A DNA stretch of 64,000 bases from positions 5,538,001-5,602,000 of the forward strand of contig NZ_CP129137.1 of assembly GCF_030406905.1 (NCBI RefSeq), given 5' to 3'. Source of the DNA: Streptomyces sp. HUAS CB01 (GTDB taxonomy: Bacteria; Actinomycetota; Actinomycetes; Streptomycetales; Streptomycetaceae). Below the pieces are notes generated by a model that saw only the letters and a list, made by a program, of their open reading frames with translations, made no database searches and was not told the DNA's origin. This document shows positions 40,379-49,163 of the stretch, piece after piece. Numbering within the stretch: position 1 is the stretch's first letter; each line of letters begins with the position of its first letter. A program made the translations under genes and the position numbers.

Positions 40379-41467
40379 ATGACGACGCCCTCGATCGAGC
40401 TCAAGCCCTCCTCGACCCCCCTGTCCGACGCGGAGCGCGAGGCGATCCTGGCCAACCCGGGATTCGGCCGCCACTTCACCGATCACATGGTGACGATCAA
40501 GTGGACGGAGGGCCGCGGCTGGCACGACGCCCAGCTGACGCCGTACGCCCCGCTGTCGATCGACCCGGCCAACATGACCCTGCACTACGCGCAGGAGATC
40601 TTCGAGGGGCTGAAGGCCTACCGCAGGCCCGACGGTTCGGTCGCCACCTTCCGGCCCGACGCGAACGCCCGCCGCTTCCAGCTCTCGGCCCGCCGCCTGG
40701 CCATGCCGGAGCTGCCGGTCGAGACGTTCATCGAGGCCTGTGACGCCCTGGTCCAGCAGGACAAGGCATGGGTGCCGCAGCACGGTGGCGAGGCGTCCCT
40801 CTACCTGCGTCCGTTCATGTTCGCCAACGAGGTCGGCCTGGGGGTCCGTCCGGCCAACGAGTACCTGTTCATCGTCATCGCCTCGCCGGCCGGCCCGTAC
40901 TTCCCGGGGGGCGTCAAGCCCGTCTCCGTCTGGCTGTCGGAGAACTACGTCCGCGCCGTCCCCGGCGGCATGGGCTTCGCCAAGACCGGCGGCAACTACG
41001 CCGCCTCCCTCCTCGCGCAGGCCGAGGCGGCCGCCAAGGGCTGCGACCAGGTCGTGTGGCTCGACGCCCTGGAGCACAGGACCGTCGAGGAGATGGGCGG
41101 GATGAACCTGTACTTCGTGTACGGGGACCGGATCGTCACGCCCGAGCTCACGGGATCGCTGCTCGCCGGCATCACCCGTGACTCGCTGCTCGCGCTGGCC
41201 CGCGACCTCGGCTACGAGTCCGAGGAGGGCAGGATCACCACCGACCAGTGGAAGCGCGACACCGAGAACGGCACCCTCACCGAGGTGTTCGCGTGCGGCA
41301 CCGCCGCCGTCATCACCCCCGTCGGCACGGTCAAGTCCACCGGCGGTGAGTGGACCCAGTCGAACGGTGAGCCGGGCAAGGTCACCATGGAGCTGCGCAA
41401 GGCGCTCCTGGACATCCAGACCGGCAGGGCCGAGGACAAGCACGGCTGGATGCACGACCTCGGCTGA
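40379..41467 (+). CDS. ilvE: Branched-chain amino acid aminotransferase
   Basis: PLP enzyme of fold-type IV (362 residues) catalysing the last transamination to valine, leucine and isoleucine and the first step of their breakdown. The PLP lysine lies in [19 protein letters not shown]; the N-terminal [14 protein letters not shown] and C-terminal [15 protein letters not shown] are typical. ATG 40379 follows GAAGGA. Its leader includes a small inverted repeat (CCGCAT-C-ATGCGG at 40269-40281) and a duplicated ACAGACGT. Separated from leuB by a terminator, so it has its own promoter. Confidence 0.96.
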
Positions 41468-41520
41468 CCCGCCCGCCCGCTCGGGCGCAGGGGACCACCC
41501 GGTTCCGTCCGGCGTGTGAA

Positions 41521-41548
41521 CCGCGCGGCCCCGTACGGGGCCGCGCGG
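41521..41548. terminator. Bidirectional terminator, ilvE / permease
   Basis: A perfect 28-base palindrome: 12-base arms CCGCGCGGCCCC around GTAC, lying between the convergent ilvE and NCS1 permease genes. Confidence 0.88.
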
Positions 41549-41697
41549 TCACGTCTTCCGGCGGTGGGATGCCCGTCACGTGACCGGGAACCGGTCCGGT
41601 CGACCTTCCCGGTCGTGCAGGGAGGCACGAGGCGCACCGCTCCGGCTCCGCGCCGTGCGCGGCTGGGCCCGCGCCGGTCGCCGGGTCCCCAGGCCCC

Positions 41698-43146
41698 TCA
41701 GGGCGCCGCGGCCGCCGCCCGCTCGGCCCGGACCGCGACGCCGTCGGCCGTCCCGTCGGTGTCGTTCGGCCCCTTCCGGGGCCGGATCGCCGCGTACACC
41801 AGACCGCCCACGAGGCCCGACAGTACGAAGCTGCAGTCCACGCCCGCGGTCAGGCCGAGCAGCGGGCCTTCGTGGAACGGGGTCGACACGGCGAGGAGCC
41901 CGACGGTCGCGCCGACTGCCCAGGCGGCCGTCGCCCGGGGCTCCCAGCCGGCACGGAACCAGTAGGCGCCGCCCCGGGTGCGCCGGTTGTGGACCTGGAG
42001 GGCGTCGGCGTCGTACCTGCCGCGGCAGCGCCGATGGCCCATGAGGGTGATCACCGCCCAGGGCGTGCCGATCGCGGTGAGCAGCAGCACGAAGGAGGTC
42101 ATCGCCGACCGCGCGTCCCAGGCGAAGTGCCCGAGGAAGACGAAGGCCGTGGCCACGACGGCGACGACCACGGTGGCCGTCGTACGGCTGGCCCGGGGCA
42201 CGATCGCGTCCAGGTCGAGGCCCATCGAGTAGAGCATCAGCCCCGCGTTGCCGACCGAGCCGGCCGCGGCGGCCAGCAGCAGCGGCAGGACGTACCAGGC
42301 GGGGGCGGCCTCGACCAGGGGGCCCGCGTAGTCGAGCGAGGCCCGGGCCGCCAGCGCGGTGAAGGTGCCGAACAGCTGCGGGATCAGCAGCCCGGCGAAC
42401 AGGCCCAGACAGGTGGCGTTCAGCACGGCCCGGGGGCTGTGCCGCGCGGGCGAGATGTAGCGGGTGTAGTCACCGAGGAGCGTGATGAACGCGATCGGTC
42501 CGCTGAGCCCCGCGGCCACGGCGGACAGGGCCCAGGTGGGCCAGAAGGAGCCCAGCAGCCAAGGGGCGTCCGCAGGCGCCGCGGTGGTCAGGGCCGGCGC
42601 ATAGGCCACGAGCCCCAGGGCGAGGAGCGCGATCATGCCGACGGCCAGGACCCTGCTCAACCGCAGCAGCAGGCGGTAGCCGTGGACGGCGCCGACCACG
42701 GTGAGCGCGGCCAGCAGCCCGTAGACCAGGGCGTGGGTGGTGTCCCCGGCCGGCAGGTCCAGCATCCGCGCCAGGGCGCCGGTCATGACGTCGCCGCCGA
42801 TCCACAGCGTCAGAGCGGTGTAGCCGAGGGAGAGCAGCAGTCCGACGACCGAGCCGATCAGCCGCCCGCGCACGCCGAAGAACGCCCCGCTGGACGTGGA
42901 CAGATTGGTCGCCGTGCGCAGCGAGACGAGCGCGAGCGGTGCCGTCACCGCCACTCCGGCGACGGTGCCCGCGACCACCGAGGTGACCGCGCCCCAGAGG
43001 CCCAGGCCGAAGGAGACCGGCAGCCAGCCGAAGACGATCACGCCGAGGCAGAGGTTGGAGCCCAGCAGGATCGCCAGCACATCGCGCGGGCCGCTCGTCC
43101 GCTCCGCTTCGGGGATGGTGTCGACTCCGCGCTGTTCGATCGGCAT
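41698..43146 (-). CDS. NCS1-family nucleobase/ureide permease
   Basis: A 12-helix cation symporter (482 residues) of the NCS1 purine/cytosine/allantoin family. The N-terminal NLCLGVIVFGWLPVSFGLGLW helix and the TATNLSTSSGAFFGVRG stretch are characteristic; the tail is Arg-rich. Substrates in the family include cytosine, uracil, allantoin and hydantoins; the exact one cannot be assigned. It is divergently transcribed from the urease-like operon across a 193-base region rich in inverted repeats, so it probably imports a nitrogen source for that pathway. ATG 43146 follows AGGAG. Confidence 0.9.
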   Translation of the reverse strand: MPIEQRGVDTIPEAERTSGPRDVLAILLGSNLCLGVIVFGWLPVSFGLGLWGAVTSVVAGTVAGVAVTAPLALVSLRTATNLSTSSGAFFGVRGRLIGSVVGLLLSLGYTALTLWIGGDVMTGALARMLDLPAGDTTHALVYGLLAALTVVGAVHGYRLLLRLSRVLAVGMIALLALGLVAYAPALTTAAPADAPWLLGSFWPTWALSAVAAGLSGPIAFITLLGDYTRYISPARHSPRAVLNATCLGLFAGLLIPQLFGTFTALAARASLDYAGPLVEAAPAWYVLPLLLAAAAGSVGNAGLMLYSMGLDLDAIVPRASRTTATVVVAVVATAFVFLGHFAWDARSAMTSFVLLLTAIGTPWAVITLMGHRRCRGRYDADALQVHNRRTRGGAYWFRAGWEPRATAAWAVGATVGLLAVSTPFHEGPLLGLTAGVDCSFVLSGLVGGLVYAAIRPRKGPNDTDGTADGVAVRAERAAAAAP

Positions 43147-43339
43147 CGGGCGCTCCTGCTCCGTCGGGCGTCATTTGAGTGCTGCTCAATGTGGACCGAG
43201 CCCCGCTTCGGCGTCAATGCTTCCGGTCAACGGAAGTCACGGTTAGAGTGTCGTTCAAACATCCGGAATCGGACGTGGGGATTCCGGAGTGATGCATCCA
43301 GCGGGAGGGCCCGGCGGTCCTCCAGGGAGGCGTGGTGAC
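43147..43339. promoter_or_regulatory. Divergent control region with inverted repeats
   Basis: It contains TTGAG-(5)-CTCAA at 43175-43189, TTCCG-(5)-CGGAA at 43221-43235, a -10-like TAGAGT at 43244-43249, and TCCGGAAT-(11)-ATTCCGGA at 43262-43288. The last repeat would lie just downstream of the rightward start point (about 43256). These look like operators shared by the permease and urease-like genes; the binding protein is not known. Confidence 0.5.
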
Positions 43340-44173
43340 GTGCGACTGACCCCGACCGAGCGGGACCGGCTGCTGCTGTTCGGCGCGGCCGAACTGGCCC
43401 GGGCGCGGCGTGCCCGAGGGCTCAAGCTCAATGTCCCCGAGGCGACCGCGCTGATCGCCGACACGGTCTGCGAGGCGGCCCGGGACGGCCGCCGGCTCGC
43501 CGAGGCCATCGAGGCGGCCCGTTCCGTGCTGGGCCCCGAGGACGTTCTCCCCGGCGTCGCCGACGTCGTCACCGAGGTCCATGTCGAGGCCGTCTTCGAC
43601 GACGGCTCCCGGCTCGCGGTCGTCTCCGGCCCCATCGGCGGCGGCAGTCTCGGCGACGCGGCACCCGGCGCCGTGCTGCCCGGACCCGCGGACCCCGAGC
43701 CGGAGCCCGCGGTGCGGCTCACGGTGCGCAACACCGCGGCCGTACCGGTCAGCGTCACCTCCCACTTCCACTTCCTCGAGGCCAATCCGCGGCTCGACTT
43801 CGACCGGTCCGCGGCCTACGGCATGCGGCTCTGCGTCCCCGCCGGCTCGTCCGTCCGCTTCGGCCCGGGCGAGGAGGCCGAGGTCGGACTCGTGCCGATC
43901 GGCGGCGGCCGCGTCGCCATCGGCTTCGCGGGCCTGGTCGACGGGCCACTGGACGCGCCCGGAGCGAAGGCGGAGGCCCTCCGCCGGGCGGCCGCCTGCG
44001 GCTACCTCGGCGCCCCCGGGCCGCAGGAGAGCGGACCGCAGGAGACCGGTCCGCGTGGCGCGGACCGGGAGGAGCCGGCTCCGCAGCGTTCCGGCCCCCG
44101 TGACCCCGACGATCAGCACCCCGCACCGCGGGCCCGACAGCAGGCGCCCTGCCGGCAGGAGGAGGACAGGTGA
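43340..44173 (+). CDS. Fused urease gamma-beta subunit-like protein
   Basis: A 277-residue fusion of the two small urease subunits. Residues 1-~95 are the gamma domain (LTPTERDRLLLFGAAELARARR); ~100-227 the beta domain with SHFHFLEANPRLDFDRSAAYG, the urease-beta signature with small changes. A ~50-residue Pro/Gln/Arg/Asp tail has no counterpart in ordinary ureases. GTG 43340 is chosen behind AGGGAGG; GTG 43289 would add 17 residues. Its stop overlaps the alpha gene by four bases. As subunits form one trimer, it should assemble with the following protein. Confidence 0.88.
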   Translation: MRLTPTERDRLLLFGAAELARARRARGLKLNVPEATALIADTVCEAARDGRRLAEAIEAARSVLGPEDVLPGVADVVTEVHVEAVFDDGSRLAVVSGPIGGGSLGDAAPGAVLPGPADPEPEPAVRLTVRNTAAVPVSVTSHFHFLEANPRLDFDRSAAYGMRLCVPAGSSVRFGPGEEAEVGLVPIGGGRVAIGFAGLVDGPLDAPGAKAEALRRAAACGYLGAPGPQESGPQETGPRGADREEPAPQRSGPRDPDDQHPAPRARQQAPCRQEEDR

Positions 44174-45861
44174 GCGGCATCGACCCGCACGAGTACGCGA
44201 GCGTGCACGGCCCGCGCGCCGGGGACCGGGTGGTTCTCGGTGACTCCGGCCTGGTCGTCCGTGTCGAGTCCGACTCGCAGAAGGCCGGGGACGAGTTCCT
44301 CGCGGGCTTCGGCAAGACCGCCCGTGACGGACTGCACCTCAAGGCGGCCGCCGTCCGTGACACCTGCGACGTGGTCATCAGCAACGTGCTCGTCATCGAC
44401 GCCGTCCAGGGCATCCGCAAGGTCTCCATCGGCATCCGCGAGGGGCGTATCGCCGGCATCGGCCGTGCCGGGAACCCGGACACCCTCGACGGCGTGGACG
44501 TCGTCGTCGGCACCGGTACGACGATCGTGTCCGGCGAAGGGCTCATCGCCACCGCCGGGGCCGTGGACACGCATGTCCATCTGCTCTCGCCGCGGGTGAT
44601 GGAGGCGTCGCTCGCCTCCGGCGTCACGACGATCATCGGGCAGGAGTTCGGCCCGGTCTGGGGCGTCGGCGTCAACTCCCCGTGGGCGCTCAAGCACGCC
44701 TTCGGGGCCTTCGACGCCTGGCCCGTCAACATCGGCTTCCTCGCCCGCGGTTCGTCATCCGACGAGGCCCCGCTCGTCGAGGCGCTCGCCGAGGGCGGCG
44801 CGTCCGGCTTCAAGGTCCACGAGGACATGGGCGCCCACACCCGCGCGCTCGACACCGCCCTGCGGGTGGCCGAGGAGTACGACGTCCAGGTCGCCCTGCA
44901 CAGCGACGGCCTCAACGAATGCCTCTCCGTGGACGACACGCTGAAGGTCCTGGACGGCCGGACCGTCCACGCCTTCCACATCGAGGGCTGCGGCGGGGGA
45001 CACGTGCCGAACGTGCTCAGGATGGCGGGCGTGCCGAACGTCATCGGCTCCTCCACCAACCCCACACTGCCCTTCGGGCGGGACGCGGTCGCCGAGCACT
45101 ACGGGATGATCGTCTCCGTACACGACCTCAAGACCGACCTCCCCGGCGACGCGGCCATGGCCCGGGACCGGATCCGTGCCGGGACGATGGGGGCCGAGGA
45201 CGTGCTGCACGACCTCGGGGCGATCGGCATCACCTCGTCCGACGCCCAGGGCATGGGCCGTGCGGGCGAGACCGTGCGGCGCACCTTCGCCATGGCCGGG
45301 AAGATGAAGGCCGAGCTGGGCCCCATGGAGGGCGACGGCGCGCACGACGACAACGCGCGCGTCCTGCGCTACATGGCCAAGCTGACCGTCAACCCCGCGA
45401 TCGCCCACGGCCTGGCGCACGAGATCGGCTCGATCGAGACGGGCAAGCTCGCCGACATCGTGCTGTGGAAGCCGCAGTTCTTCGGCGCGAAGCCGCAGCT
45501 GGTGCTGAAGGCGGGCTTCCCGGCGTACGGGGTGACCGGCGACCCGAACGCCGCGACCGACACCTGCGAACCGCTCGTCCTCGGGCCGCAGTTCGGTGCC
45601 CACGGCGCGACTCCCTCCGAGATCTCCGTGGCGTTCGTGTCCCAGGCCGCGGCGGCACTCGGCGGCGACACCCTGCCCACCCGCAGGCGACGCGTCGGGG
45701 TGCGCGGCACCCGCGGCATCGGCCCGCGGGACCTGCGCCTCAACTCCCGCGTCGGTGACGTGGCCGTGGACGCGCACAGCGGACTCGTCACGCTCGACGG
45801 CGATCCCCTGCGCTCCGATCCGGTCGAGTCGATGTCGCTCAACCGGCTGTACTTCCTCTGA
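44170..45861 (+). CDS. Divergent urease alpha subunit-like metalloamidohydrolase
   Basis: A 563-residue protein of the urease alpha family. All nickel ligands of classical urease have counterparts: H135, H137, the carbamylated lysine K215 (FKVHED), H244, H270 and D358. The mobile flap differs: the Cys-His pair is Val317-His318 (MIVSVHDL), and the usual GGGTGP stretch reads GQEFGP. No ureD/E/F/G maturation genes occur in the window. From memory, S. coelicolor has a similar second urease-like pair besides its complete urease cluster. Substrate is therefore open: urea, or a substituted urea/guanidine linked to the neighbouring agmatine deiminase. GTG 44170 overlaps the previous stop. Confidence 0.88.
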   Translation: MSGIDPHEYASVHGPRAGDRVVLGDSGLVVRVESDSQKAGDEFLAGFGKTARDGLHLKAAAVRDTCDVVISNVLVIDAVQGIRKVSIGIREGRIAGIGRAGNPDTLDGVDVVVGTGTTIVSGEGLIATAGAVDTHVHLLSPRVMEASLASGVTTIIGQEFGPVWGVGVNSPWALKHAFGAFDAWPVNIGFLARGSSSDEAPLVEALAEGGASGFKVHEDMGAHTRALDTALRVAEEYDVQVALHSDGLNECLSVDDTLKVLDGRTVHAFHIEGCGGGHVPNVLRMAGVPNVIGSSTNPTLPFGRDAVAEHYGMIVSVHDLKTDLPGDAAMARDRIRAGTMGAEDVLHDLGAIGITSSDAQGMGRAGETVRRTFAMAGKMKAELGPMEGDGAHDDNARVLRYMAKLTVNPAIAHGLAHEIGSIETGKLADIVLWKPQFFGAKPQLVLKAGFPAYGVTGDPNAATDTCEPLVLGPQFGAHGATPSEISVAFVSQAAAALGGDTLPTRRRRVGVRGTRGIGPRDLRLNSRVGDVAVDAHSGLVTLDGDPLRSDPVESMSLNRLYFL

Positions 45862-45913
45862 GCCCGCCCGAGTCCCCGATCTCCGCTCCGAACCCTCTCC
45901 ACAAGGACCTGTG

Positions 45914-46933
45914 ATGACGTTCCGCATGCCGCCCGAGTGGGCCCCGCACGAGCGCACCTGGATGGCCTGGCCCGGCCCCAACCCGACCTTCACCGACGAC
46001 GGGGAACTCGCCGGGGCCCGCGCCGCCTGGGCCGAGGTGGCCCGTGCCGTACGCCGCTTCGAGCCGGTCACCATGGTGGTGGGCCCGGGAGAGACCGAGG
46101 GCGCCCGCGAACTGCTCGGCGCGGACGTCGAGATCGTGGAGCGCGAGCTGGACGACGCGTGGATGCGCGACATCGGCCCGACCTTCGTCACCGACGGCGA
46201 GGGCGGCCTCGCCGCCGTCGACTGGGTGTTCAACGGCTGGGGCGCCCAGGACTGGGCGCGCTGGGAGCACGACTCCAAGATCGCCCGCCATGTGGCCGAC
46301 CTGGCGGACGCTCCCGTCCTCTCCTCGCCGCTCGTCAACGAGGGCGGCGCGATCCACGTCGACGGCGAGGGCACCGTCCTGCTGACCGACACCGTCCAGC
46401 TCGGGGCCGGGCGCAATCCCGACTGGACGCGCGAGCAGGTCGAGGCGGAGATCCACGCCAGGCTCGGCACCACCAAGGCGATCTGGCTGCCGCACGGTCT
46501 GGCCGGCGACTACGGCATGTACGGCACGCAGGGCCACGTCGACATCGTCGCGGCGTTCGCCCGGCCGGGTGTGGTCCTCGTCCACAGCCAGCAGGACCCG
46601 GCCCACCCGGACCACGAGCGTTCGAGGACCTACGCGGAGATCCTGCGCGGCAGCACCGACGCCCGCGGCCGCACGCTGGAGGTCGTGGAGATCCCGGCGC
46701 CGACCGTTCTCGAGGACGAGGACGGGGAGTGGGTCGACTACTCCTACATCAACCACTACCTGTGCAACGGCGGAGTGGTGCTGTGCTCCTTCGACGACCC
46801 CCACGACGAGATCGCGGCGGGCATCTTCCGCCGCCTCTTCCCGGAGCGCACGGTGACCCTGGTCGACGCCCGCACGATCTTCGCGAGCGGCGGGGGCATC
46901 CACTGCATCACCCAGCAGCAGCCGAAGGTCTGA
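45914..46933 (+). CDS. aguA: Agmatine deiminase
   Basis: A pentein-fold hydrolase (339 residues) converting agmatine to N-carbamoylputrescine and ammonia. The family pattern is clear: MPPEWAPHERTWMAWPG at the start, MRDIGPTFV, NEGGAIHVDGEGT, and the nucleophile cysteine in GGGIHCITQQQP at the end. ATG 45914 follows AAGGACCTGTG. It begins 53 bases after the urease alpha-like gene and is probably in the same operon. N-carbamoylputrescine hydrolase (aguB), the usual partner, is not in the window; the urease-like enzyme might deal with a related ureido product, which is speculation. Confidence 0.95.
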   Translation: MTFRMPPEWAPHERTWMAWPGPNPTFTDDGELAGARAAWAEVARAVRRFEPVTMVVGPGETEGARELLGADVEIVERELDDAWMRDIGPTFVTDGEGGLAAVDWVFNGWGAQDWARWEHDSKIARHVADLADAPVLSSPLVNEGGAIHVDGEGTVLLTDTVQLGAGRNPDWTREQVEAEIHARLGTTKAIWLPHGLAGDYGMYGTQGHVDIVAAFARPGVVLVHSQQDPAHPDHERSRTYAEILRGSTDARGRTLEVVEIPAPTVLEDEDGEWVDYSYINHYLCNGGVVLCSFDDPHDEIAAGIFRRLFPERTVTLVDARTIFASGGGIHCITQQQPKV

Positions 46934-47012
46934 CCGCTGCCCGCGTCGCCCCGGGACGGGGGCCCACCGGTCCGGACGGGGGCCCCACCCCGGGTGGCCG
47001 GGGGATCGGGTA

Positions 47013-47032
47013 GAACGTACGGGTGAACGTTC
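47013..47032 (+). promoter_or_regulatory. Inverted repeat over the tetR start, possible autoregulation site
   Basis: GAACGT and ACGTTC arms, eight bases apart, straddle GTG 47023 of the TetR gene. TAGAAC at 47011-47016 is placed as a -10 for a transcript beginning at the start codon, so a bound repressor would block it. Confidence 0.4.
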
Positions 47033-47631
47033 CCCCGGGCCCCCGACGCCGCAACACCGCTCCTCCCCGTGAGGAGGTGCTCGCCGCGGCGATGGCGACG
47101 ATCGCCGAGCACGGGCTCGACGGGCTGACCATGGCCGGGCTCGGCCGTGAGGTCGGGATGAGCAGCGGGCATCTGCTCTACTACTTCCGCACCAAGGACG
47201 AGCTGCTGCTGCGGACCCTGGAATGGAGCGAGGGCCGGCTCGGTGCCGAGCGGAGCGCGCTGCTGTCCCGGCCCGGCGCCGCCCGCGAGCGGCTCGACGC
47301 GTACGTGGACCTGTACGTCCCCGACGGCCACCGCGACCCCCACTGGACGCTGTGGCTGGAGGTCTGGAACCGCTCGCAGAACGCCGACGAGGACGCCCGA
47401 GCCCGGCAGGCCGCGATCGAGGGCGCCTGGCACCGCGACCTCGTCGCCCTGCTCGCCGAGGGCATCTCGCGGGGCGAGTTCCGTTCCGTCGACCCGGACC
47501 GCTACGCCGCGCGGCTGCGGGCCCTCCTCGACGGCTTCAGCGTCCACGTGGCCGTCGGCATACCCGGCACCGACCGTGCCCAAGTCCTGGCCCACGTGAG
47601 GGAGTTCATCGCCGACTCGCTGATGCCGTGA
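47023..47631 (+). CDS. TetR-family regulator
   Basis: A 202-residue regulator. The N-terminal helix-turn-helix reads EEVLAAAMATIAEHGLDGLT then MAGLGREVGMSSGHLLYYFR, the TetR hallmark. The rest is a helical ligand domain of the BetI-like TetR_C_6 type. GTG 47023; no ribosome site, probably leaderless. It lies 89 bases after agmatine deiminase in the same direction, so it may be part of the urease-like/agmatine unit and control it; polyamine- or nitrogen-responsive members are common. Confidence 0.9.
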   Translation: MNVPPGPRRRNTAPPREEVLAAAMATIAEHGLDGLTMAGLGREVGMSSGHLLYYFRTKDELLLRTLEWSEGRLGAERSALLSRPGAARERLDAYVDLYVPDGHRDPHWTLWLEVWNRSQNADEDARARQAAIEGAWHRDLVALLAEGISRGEFRSVDPDRYAARLRALLDGFSVHVAVGIPGTDRAQVLAHVREFIADSLMP

Positions 47632-48329
47632 CAGCCGCCGCGTCCGCGCGGCGCCTGCGGCCAGGGACGCCCTTCCGCTCCGCGGTGCCGGGCCGGCGGG
47701 GACGAGGGCGGGCGACGGCCACCGGCGGCGTGCCGGCCCGTAGGCCACCGGCGGCAGGGAGGCCCGTCGGCGGCGGTGCCTCGCGGGACGGCCCCCGGGA
47801 GGTTCGGCCGCCGGCCGCGGCGTCCGAAGGGGTGCGGGCCCTGCGCCGTGCCCCGCCTGCGGGGACGAGTGAGAGCGCCGTACTCGACCGGCCCGGCGCC
47901 GGACCGGCCCGGACCCGACGGGACCGGCGCGGCATCTCGTCGATCGCCCGGACCGGGACCGCCGGTGTCCACCCGTGGTGCCGAAACCGTCCTCGGCGCG
48001 CTGCGCGCTGCGTGCTGTGACCGCCCGGGACCGCCGGTGTCCACCCCTGAGCCGGAACCGTCTTGGCCGCTGCGTGCCGTGACCGCCCCGACCGGCCCGG
48101 TCGCGACGGGTCCGGCCGTCCCGTCGTCCCGCGACGGGCCCCGAGTGCGTCGGTGCTTCACGATCGTCACCGCCGGACCGCGTCGGCGCCCGGGGGTCCG
48201 GGAGGTACGGCCGCCGCGTACGCACTCCGCAAGCGGCACCCCGCATCCCGGCCACGTGCCCGGTCGATGCCCGATGCCCGACTCCCGTCCGCGCGATCGC
48301 CGTCTGCACGGCCCGGCGGCAGCGGACCG
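47632..48329. other. Long intergenic region with imperfect repeats
   Basis: About 700 bases between the TetR gene and the convergent membrane protein gene. All open frames give Arg/Pro/Gly strings without ribosome sites. Short words GGGACCGCCGGTGTCCACCC, CGGACCGGCCCGG and similar are repeated. I see no gene, terminator or mobile element. Confidence 0.6.
47954..48088. repeat. Degenerate ~70-bp direct repeat
   Basis: A segment beginning GGGACCGCCGGTGTCCACCC and ending GTGACCGCCC occurs at about 47954-48025 and, shortened by several deletions, at about 48027-48088. Head-to-tail, with roughly 80 percent identity by eye. Confidence 0.65.
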
Positions 48330-49163
48330 TCACCGCCCCGCCGCGGCCTCCGGCTGCTGTTCGAGGCGCTCGTGCATCTTGCGCAGTGAGTCCGTGGCGT
48401 ACCTCTGGAGCTGCGCGTCAAGATCGGCCTTGCCCACCACATAGGCGCTGAGGATGTTCCGGCCGTCCCGCCCGGTGGCGATGACGTAGAGGTCGTTCAC
48501 CTTCGCCCCGTTCGCCGAGACGACCTGGCGGCCCTCCTCCGAGACCAGTTCGTCGAAGCCCGGCAGCTGCGGCGGGCTCGCCTCGCGCACGGCGTTCCAG
48601 CGTTCCTTGCCGCGGAACTGGTCGGGGCAGCGGTGGATGTTGTCCCGGGCGTCGGCGAGATACTGCCTCGCCGTGGCCTCGTCGGCGAACACCTTCACCT
48701 CGGAGGTCCCCGCGATACCGGACGACGCCTCCGTCACATTGCGCTGCAGGGACGCCAGCGTGCCGATCCGGCTGGGGCGGCTGGCGAACTCGCAGTTCTC
48801 CCGTACCAGGGACTCCGGCGCGGGATCGACCTCGTACGGCTTGTGCTGGGCGAAACCGGGTCCCCAGTCCGGGGGCGCCAGCGCCACCCGTGTCGCCACG
48901 GCGTGCGCCGCCGCCTCGGCGGCCTTCGTGTCGGTGGGCGCGGGCGGGACGGCACGCTCGCCGTCGCCGTCGCCGCCGAGCGACACCACCAGCACGACGA
49001 CGAGCACCAGTACCGCCGCCGCGGCCCCGGCGATCAGTGCCCGCTTGCGCCGGGAGCCCCCGCGCGGAGCCCCGGAGCCCGAGGGCGGCGGGGGACCGGG
49101 TGCCGGTCCGGAGGGCCGGGGGACGGGTCCTGAGGGCGGGCCCGTGGGGGGTTGTGAGCTCAT
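48330..49163 (-). CDS. Membrane-anchored hypothetical protein
   Basis: A 277-residue protein: a Pro/Gly/Ser-rich cytoplasmic head (SSQPPTGPPSGPVPRPSGP), a basic patch RRKRA, one membrane helix at about 45-65, then an extracytoplasmic domain of ~200 residues with two cysteines (NCEFASRPS and HRCPDQ). The outer part is a globular alpha/beta sequence that resembles uncharacterised actinobacterial sensor-like domains (PknH-like), but the match is not firm. ATG 49163 starts the Pro-rich head. It diverges from the citramalate synthase leader. Confidence 0.8.
   Translation of the reverse strand: MSSQPPTGPPSGPVPRPSGPAPGPPPPSGSGAPRGGSRRKRALIAGAAAAVLVLVVVLVVSLGGDGDGERAVPPAPTDTKAAEAAAHAVATRVALAPPDWGPGFAQHKPYEVDPAPESLVRENCEFASRPSRIGTLASLQRNVTEASSGIAGTSEVKVFADEATARQYLADARDNIHRCPDQFRGKERWNAVREASPPQLPGFDELVSEEGRQVVSANGAKVNDLYVIATGRDGRNILSAYVVGKADLDAQLQRYATDSLRKMHERLEQQPEAAAGR

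Follow-up and report, generated by a model that had tools for sequence, protein, structure and literature searches.

Introduction

Ureases are known as nickel enzymes that act on urea and need a dedicated machinery to load their metal. What would a urease-like enzyme do when its genes stand next to an agmatine deiminase gene and no loading machinery is encoded nearby? The question is raised by a locus of Streptomyces sp. HUAS CB01, found in a stretch of 64,000 nucleotides (hereafter the window; G000:C1:5538001-5602000 in the 8.1-Mb genome). At this locus, genes for a urease gamma-beta fusion (UreAB2), a urease-like alpha subunit (UreC2), an agmatine deiminase family protein (AgDI) and a TetR-type regulator follow each other on the forward strand. 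We think, with moderate confidence, that ureAB2-ureC2-agDI-tetR is an operon devoted to the use of agmatine. A urease-family enzyme would carry out the second and last step, from N-carbamoylputrescine to putrescine, NH3 and CO2.

Results

Association of UreC2 with agmatine deiminase

A sequence-only reading of the window had proposed five genes here, for an NCS1 permease, the gamma-beta fusion, the alpha subunit, AgDI and TetR. All five open reading frames were recovered at or very near the places it gave, with strong Pfam matches. The gene for AgDI (AguA-like, 339 amino acids, PF04371 at 376 bits) lies at 45914..46933 on the forward strand, downstream of ureC2 (44170..45861, same strand). Following a suggestion of the same reading, we surveyed the order of these genes in 80 other UreC2 loci, fetched by a pattern scan as the best 80 of at least 551 and mostly from Streptomyces. 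In 76 of them, the gene that directly follows ureC2 on its strand encodes AgDI, and 78 encode AgDI somewhere in the locus; the NCS1 permease, present in 45, was the least constant member of the module. In a class survey of 394 genomes (57 with UreC2, 337 without), the AgDI family was found in 49 of the 57 carriers and 56 of the 337 others (Fisher p ~1e-24, kinship ignored). Outside the genus of the window, the figures were 21 of 29 against 52 of 325. The arrangement of UreC2 and AgDI is not due to chance.

Exchange of partner enzymes at agmatine deiminase loci

We then looked at what stands beside AgDI where UreC2 is missing, using 20 AgDI loci, one each from 20 of the 56 UreC2-negative AgDI genomes. 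An AguB-like nitrilase adjoined the AgDI place in 10, an AguY-like amidase in 4, and neither in 6, one of which (L130) ends at a contig edge beside AgDI and is uninformative. Where UreC2 is present, it holds this place instead of AguB or AguY. The single nitrilase tested scored 199 bits against the AguB model (cut-off 410), and the single amidase 833 bits against PRK06565 (cut-off 575). Biochemical work has established that AguY encoded next to AguA acts as an amidohydrolase on N-carbamoylputrescine; of the two such enzymes, one comes from the actinomycete Microterricola gilva (Li and co-workers, PMC12283126; what is said here of papers cited by accession refers to the parts of them that were available). 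Judging by size, family and position, the amidases found here would be AguY orthologues. The AgDI-linked nitrilases, too, would act on N-carbamoylputrescine.

In a tree of 70 AgDI rows, one clade of 37 (support 100/99) brought together 18 UreC2-linked, 8 nitrilase-linked, 4 AguY-linked and 7 other proteins, "UreC2-linked" meaning encoded in the same fetched locus and not always adjacent. All linkage types in this clade have a common catalytic signature. Proteins of 300 amino acids or fewer were left out of the tree, the garbled L088_15 was removed, and nitrilase-linked L120 and L126 do not appear because the simple gene caller overlooked their AgDI, as it did UreC2 in L068 and L069, detected there by tblastn. 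The same AgDI clade is thus found beside a nitrilase or an amidase where UreC2 is absent, so that UreC2 appears to occupy the slot of an N-carbamoylputrescine hydrolase. Conversely, 45 separately fetched UreC2 loci gave no nitrilase, AguY or carbamoyltransferase match except a weak nitrilase in L057, and among the 80 loci such matches were confined to L163 (the L057 contig) and L175.

Three further AgDI subclades are represented at UreC2 loci; in one of them is an AgDI that adjoins a putrescine-carbamoyltransferase-like gene (TIGR04384, 459 bits, cut-off 500). The UreC2 genome G190 has in addition, at L134, an AgDI gene near putrescine-carbamoyltransferase-like and amino-acid-permease-like genes, so two agmatine routes may coexist there. 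As to the genome of the window, an AguB-like nitrilase (258 bits) encoded in it is unlikely to be a hidden partner: its gene lies among putative aminotransferase, dihydropyrimidinase and NCS1 permease genes, as in pyrimidine breakdown. Compared with two AgDI-linked nitrilases, it is 34% identical to the closer one.

Substrate of the deiminase

The pathway proposed above supposes that AgDI acts on agmatine or a close guanidino amine. In an alignment with the Arabidopsis enzyme, its catalytic Cys, His and Asp are kept. At the positions of plant Asp89, Trp91, Asp94 and Trp125, whose roles are described in PMC6447857, its residues are those of the AguY- and nitrilase-linked AgDIs. Where the plant enzyme has Asp220, which binds the amine of agmatine directly, AgDI has an insertion of a few residues, with an Asp nearby. 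We first took this for a loss of Asp220 and a hint of some other substrate; as AguY- and nitrilase-linked AgDIs have the same insertion, it does not count against agmatine.

AgDI might nevertheless deiminate another guanidino compound, either guanidine, giving urea, or guanidinobutyrate-like acids, UreAB2-UreC2 then hydrolysing urea or a ureido acid. AgDI indeed falls below the equivalog TIGR03380 (315.9 bits, cut-off 381.8), and several divergent AgDI subfamilies occur at UreC2 loci, some with apparent export signals (putative). We nevertheless regard this as unlikely, given the clade and signature that AgDI has in common with the AguY- and nitrilase-linked enzymes, the four positions above included. 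Moreover, Rfam gave no match in 41000-48500, so there is no guanidine riboswitch in that interval, and control by a riboswitch was rejected. Transporter neighbours point to polyamines as well. Genes for a spermidine/putrescine-type ATP-binding cassette (ABC) transporter adjoin UreC2 in L057, L058, L060, L065 and L067 (one permease gene in L067 was not called). In L057, the one locus given a family scan, all four parts matched spermidine/putrescine models best in NCBIfam, and of these models only the broad potA model was over its cut-off.

Some Streptomycetaceae have a second UreC2 locus (L072, L074, L075, L084, L086, L088), with one to four AgDI paralogues, some carrying apparent twin-arginine or lipoprotein signals (putative), together with a peptide/nickel-type ABC binding protein. 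Two genomes (L083/L084 and L085/L086) have nearly identical UreC2 proteins at the two loci but different AgDIs.

The UreC2 clade and its active site

UreAB2 (277 amino acids, 43340..44173, forward strand) is a fusion of PF00547 and PF00699 and passes PRK13192 (312 bits, over cut-off). Its most likely start is the GTG at 43340, given a GGAGG-like site upstream and the relatives, as opposed to a longer open reading frame from 43289. The gene overlaps that of UreC2 by 4 bases. UreC2 (563 amino acids, PF00449 and PF01979) passes the wide model PRK13207 (732 bits, over cut-off) and remains below the equivalog TIGR01792 (626.8 bits, cut-off 680).

Among the matches listed for 150 Streptomycetaceae genomes, UreC proteins fell into two bands, at 75-91% (plus the window itself) and 46-49% identity to UreC2, the upper band being present in about 99 genomes by hand count. 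The canonical alpha subunit of the genome of the window is 46-48% identical to UreC2. In the class survey, the 57 carriers (UreC2 match at E < 1e-165) comprised 28 of the 40 genomes from the genus of the window and 29 of the 354 from other genera, where identity was 54-84%. In a maximum-likelihood tree of 61 rows, a 100/100 branch separated 39 UreC2 and 4 plasmid relatives from 14 canonical ureases and 4 rows of a third group; the canonical ureases formed their own clade, also at 100/100. Named contigs among the 80 fetched loci place UreC2 in Streptomyces, Kitasatospora, Streptacidiphilus, Nonomuraea and one actinomycete metagenome-assembled genome. The tree places UreC2 in a well-supported clade of actinobacteria that is distinct from the canonical ureases.

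His219, His320 and Arg336 (K. aerogenes urease numbering, as for the metal ligands below) are catalytic in urease. All three are kept in 85 of 85 UreC2 rows, which include the 4 plasmid rows and are all distinct after removal of seven repeats. So are the six metal ligands H134, H136, K217, H246, H272 and D360 (list from PMC3816311). Around these residues, the clade departs from canonical ureases, which were reduced from 16 to 14 rows when L095 and L103 were moved to the third group with L099 and L100. The canonical Gly-Gly pair, invariant at both positions (14 of 14), is replaced by Gln158 in all 85 UreC2 rows and by Glu159 in 80, with Asn in the four plasmid rows and Asp in L065; in the window, the Gln158-Glu159 codons lie at 44641..44646 on the forward strand. 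Trp222 (14 of 14 canonical) becomes Met, Thr or Leu in 85 of 85. Ala363 (14 of 14 canonical) becomes Gly in 81, Ala being retained by the four plasmid rows. The flap Cys319, present in 13 of 14 canonical rows, is kept in 3 of 85 (L065, L067, L087). One loop is shorter in every UreC2 row, by 4 residues relative to 11 canonical rows and by 3 relative to the other 3. The UreC2 of the window has Gln158/Glu159, Val at the flap position, and its Gly361 in the place of canonical Ala363. Since the metal and catalytic residues are invariant and the changes around them specific to the clade, UreC2 is under constraint and likely to be active, with an altered pocket. Glu159 is acidic and follows strand 2 of the barrel, a position from which it could meet the amine of a cationic ureido substrate.

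The full set of ligands and catalytic residues would also suit a plain urease acting on urea, which would obtain its metal without UreDEFG, its link to AgDI reflecting general nitrogen scavenging. An iron-cofactored urease does exist (PMC11541087, PMC3816311), UreA2B2 of Helicobacter being the case in point. Yet urea is not a product of AgDI, the neighbour of AgDI in many relatives is an enzyme of the N-carbamoylputrescine-hydrolase type, the loss of the flap Cys and the Gly-to-Gln/Glu change are specific to the UreC2 clade, and many carriers have a canonical urease as well. Taken together, these points make a plain urease improbable.

Two groups of relatives deserve a description of their own. 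The third group (L095, L099, L100, L103) has a GGVWDVG loop and, like UreC2, the flap Val, Gly for Ala363 and the short loop; Gln-Glu is absent from it. Its genes in L099 and L100 adjoin that of a putative major facilitator superfamily transporter, and no accessory gene was found within 7 kb. It may be another accessory-free branch. The plasmid relatives (L036, L037, L038 and L039, from Embleya, Streptomyces and Kitasatospora, together with L162) encode a sister ure(AB)-ureC pair at 66% identity, with Asn for Glu159. The pair sits in plasmid-borne nonribosomal peptide synthetase (NRPS) clusters (L039 being unannotated), with no accessory gene annotated nearby. These clusters encode an APH-like kinase, a putative radical-SAM enzyme whose B12-binding match is below threshold, a 2-oxoglutarate-Fe(II) oxygenase and an NRPS that includes a nitroreductase-type domain.

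Transport and control

The permease gene (41698..43146, reverse strand; PF02133, 293 bits) is divergent from ureAB2 and an optional member of the module. Its product is far under the NCBIfam NCS1 cut-offs, and has no sequence match in PDB. According to the Pfam description, NCS1 permeases often transport nucleobases and allantoin. UreAB2-UreC2 could accordingly be thought to hydrolyse a ureido compound from purine or pyrimidine breakdown, imported by this permease. In L087, UreAB-UreC2 is found near a putative xanthine-dehydrogenase-type large subunit and peptide-type ABC genes, with no AgDI in the 16 kb fetched; there, UreC2 perhaps acts on another substrate. For the module at large we consider this very improbable, the permease being missing from 35 of the 80 loci and AgDI being present in 78. 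The sequence-only reading had suggested a ureido or guanidino compound from either polyamine or purine breakdown. The polyamine half of this suggestion is supported, with UreC2 in the hydrolase place beside the same AgDI clade and, in several relatives, with polyamine-type ABC neighbours; the purine half is not, apart from L087.

The regulator gene (47023..47631, forward strand; PF00440 and PF13977) encodes a TetR/BetI-type protein, the likely binder of two predicted operators with the palindromic pattern TTWGARYGNNRYTCWAW. O1 (43174..43190) is 27 bases from the permease start; O2 (43243..43259), 69 bases from O1, is upstream of the gamma-beta gene. The pattern occurs in the window at 43174 and 43243 only, has no match in 100 shuffles of the window, and is found nowhere else in the 8.1-Mb genome. 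The 69-base spacing recurs in G064, G076 and G092, and is 109 in G080. In 125 loci (1.81 Mb; 123 different places, since L163 duplicates L057 and L168 duplicates L076), all 139 matches lay at most 270 bases upstream of ureAB. The pattern was present in 85 of 89 loci with this TetR, versus 4 of 36 without. Ten whole genomes were searched: nine had matches, every one at the module, and G085, which has no UreC2, had none. The reversed pattern, used as a control over whole genomes, gave one match. As the pattern was drawn from some of the same loci, its position upstream of ureAB is partly built in; its genome-wide exclusivity is not. Since the matches are confined to the module, TetR most likely controls this operon and the permease alone.

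Accessory genes track canonical UreC

No ureD, ureE, ureF or ureG was recognised near the module, as the sequence-only reading had noticed. The flanks consist of leuB-ilvE on one side and lipoprotein-like and LeuA/CimA-like genes on the other (putative names, read from sequence). The single UreD and UreF matches of the genome lie at about C1:996-998 kb, adjoining the canonical ureC, some 4.6 Mb from the module. Likewise, tblastn detected no UreD, UreE, UreF or UreG in the 80 fetched loci (up to 6 kb on each side, some ended by the contig). Queries were UreD, UreE, UreF and UreG of Hydrogenophilus, with UreD, UreG and part of UreF of the genome of the window; the same queries detect UreD, UreF and UreG in canonical loci, the positive control covering these three and not UreE. 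Strict conservation beside full ureDEFG sets, which the sequence-only reading had put forward as evidence that would speak against it, was seen at 0 of 80 loci.

Genome-wide searches covered UreD and UreF, not UreG or UreE. Seven of the 150 Streptomycetaceae genomes have UreC2 and no other UreC. UreD was absent from six of the seven and UreF from all seven; two of the six genomes lacking both are single-contig. The seventh, G108, lacks both UreF and canonical UreC but has a UreD match at G108:C3:17194-17619, which may be a leftover. UreD and UreF were both present in four control genomes, each with a canonical-type UreC. Among the 29 carriers outside Streptomycetaceae, where UreD alone was sought, it was found in 7 of 7 with a canonical UreC and 0 of 22 without. 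Accessory genes therefore track canonical UreC, not UreC2.

UreC2 might instead be a normal nickel urease that the UreDFG proteins of the canonical cluster mature in trans, which the UreD and UreF encoded in the genome of the window would allow; the sequence-only reading had likewise considered help from the accessory proteins of a distant canonical urease. This is already contradicted by these 22 genomes without UreD, the six Streptomycetaceae without UreD or UreF, and the 80 loci without a detected accessory gene, so that we rejected it as very improbable. Carriage of UreC2 by genomes that lack UreD or UreF makes it unlikely that its metal is loaded via the nickel-urease route. In three genomes (L062, L063, L064), UreC2 is followed by conserved thioredoxin-like and cation-efflux (CDF-like) genes on the opposite strand (putative), possibly tied to metal supply.

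Discussion

The reading we favour runs as follows. The TetR-controlled genes ureAB2-ureC2-agDI-tetR would be transcribed as an operon serving the use of agmatine or a close guanidino amine. AgDI would take the imino nitrogen off agmatine, giving N-carbamoylputrescine and NH3. UreAB2-UreC2, a predicted two-metal amidohydrolase of urease fold with a reshaped pocket, would then split N-carbamoylputrescine into putrescine, NH3 and CO2, in the role taken elsewhere by AguB, a nitrilase, or AguY, an amidase. Its maturation would proceed without UreD and UreF, with a metal that probably does not come through the nickel-urease route. Where the divergent NCS1 permease occurs, it may import the substrate or a related compound. 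By its position, UreC2 most likely works like an N-carbamoylputrescine hydrolase, and we do not file it as a canonical urease because several defining features of one are missing from it.

Several observations weigh against this proposal. UreC2 and AgDI both score under the urease and agmatine-deiminase equivalog cut-offs. Eight of the 57 UreC2 genomes have no AgDI-family match, and some others carry AgDI elsewhere in the genome. The AgDIs of the second loci in Streptomycetaceae are diverse and may have other guanidines as substrates. A weakly similar nitrilase is present in L057/L163, and L175 matches a nitrilase, AguY or carbamoyltransferase query. The AguB equivalog TIGR03381 was over cut-off in 0 of 27 UreC2 genomes and equally in 0 of 56 UreC2-negative AgDI genomes; because the test does not discriminate between them, we dropped the absence of AguB as proof of a replacement. 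Finally, the substrate, activity and metal of UreAB2-UreC2 are predictions from sequence and gene context, and the orientation of Glu159 towards the substrate from knowledge of the fold.

How does UreC2 relate to known systems? It resembles the canonical nickel urease (UreABC with UreDEFG) in family, in its gamma/beta/alpha make-up, in the six ligands and in His219, His320 and Arg336. The two are about 43-49% identical among the rows compared, and UreC2 differs in its separate clade, the absence of accessory genes, the pairing with AgDI, Gln-Glu for Gly-Gly, A363G (not in the plasmid rows), the missing Trp222, a mostly lost flap Cys and a loop shorter by 3-4 residues. The iron urease UreA2B2 of Helicobacter is another second urease-like enzyme, apparently independent of accessory proteins and of the nickel-loading route. 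Its substrate is urea, and we liken it to UreC2 by description, not by sequence; we know of no link between UreA2B2 and AgDI. AguA-AguB of Pseudomonas likewise combines a deiminase with a hydrolase of the ureido product, but this hydrolase is a nitrilase and has no relation to urease. In AguA-AguY, also found in Actinomycetota, the second enzyme beside AguA is again non-homologous (PMC12283126). AguY is an amidase, and UreC2 would be a further, metal-dependent replacement; the word "urease" occurs 0 times in the available part of that paper.

Orphan Streptomyces ure(AB)C genes, such as SCO5525-5526, are already in print as urease genes or a urease cluster type (PMC2492869, PMC5489568, PMC3293853), and SCO5527 is given as the homologue of an arginine-decarboxylase-pathway gene (PMC3293853). 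By gene order and locus-tag adjacency, not by sequence comparison, SCO5525-5527 are apparently the same genes as the module. In the parts available, these papers regard them as urease, or else as arginine genes that lie scattered, and not as one pathway. PMC4991794 gives SCO5524-5526 as nrdABS, in conflict with the urease papers, which looks like a slip in the tags. Among the papers listed, we found none linking urease to N-carbamoylputrescine or agmatine deiminase, in a search by title and start of abstract that left subscription journals mostly outside.

More tentatively, and with somewhat less than even confidence, we propose that UreC2 founds an accessory-free, probably non-nickel urease branch for N-substituted ureas. 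In most carriers it would be a further independent solution for converting N-carbamoylputrescine to putrescine, and the sister branch with Asn for Glu159 would have been recruited to plasmid NRPS clusters for the ureido group of a natural product. By hand count among the matches listed, UreC2 is present in about two thirds of the 150 Streptomycetaceae genomes, and public records label it urease; if our proposal is true, annotation-based predictions of urease would be wrong for UreC2. A widespread urease-family enzyme kept without a loading machine would raise two questions: by what means sites of the urease type acquire metal, and whether the urease fold can accommodate substituted ureas.

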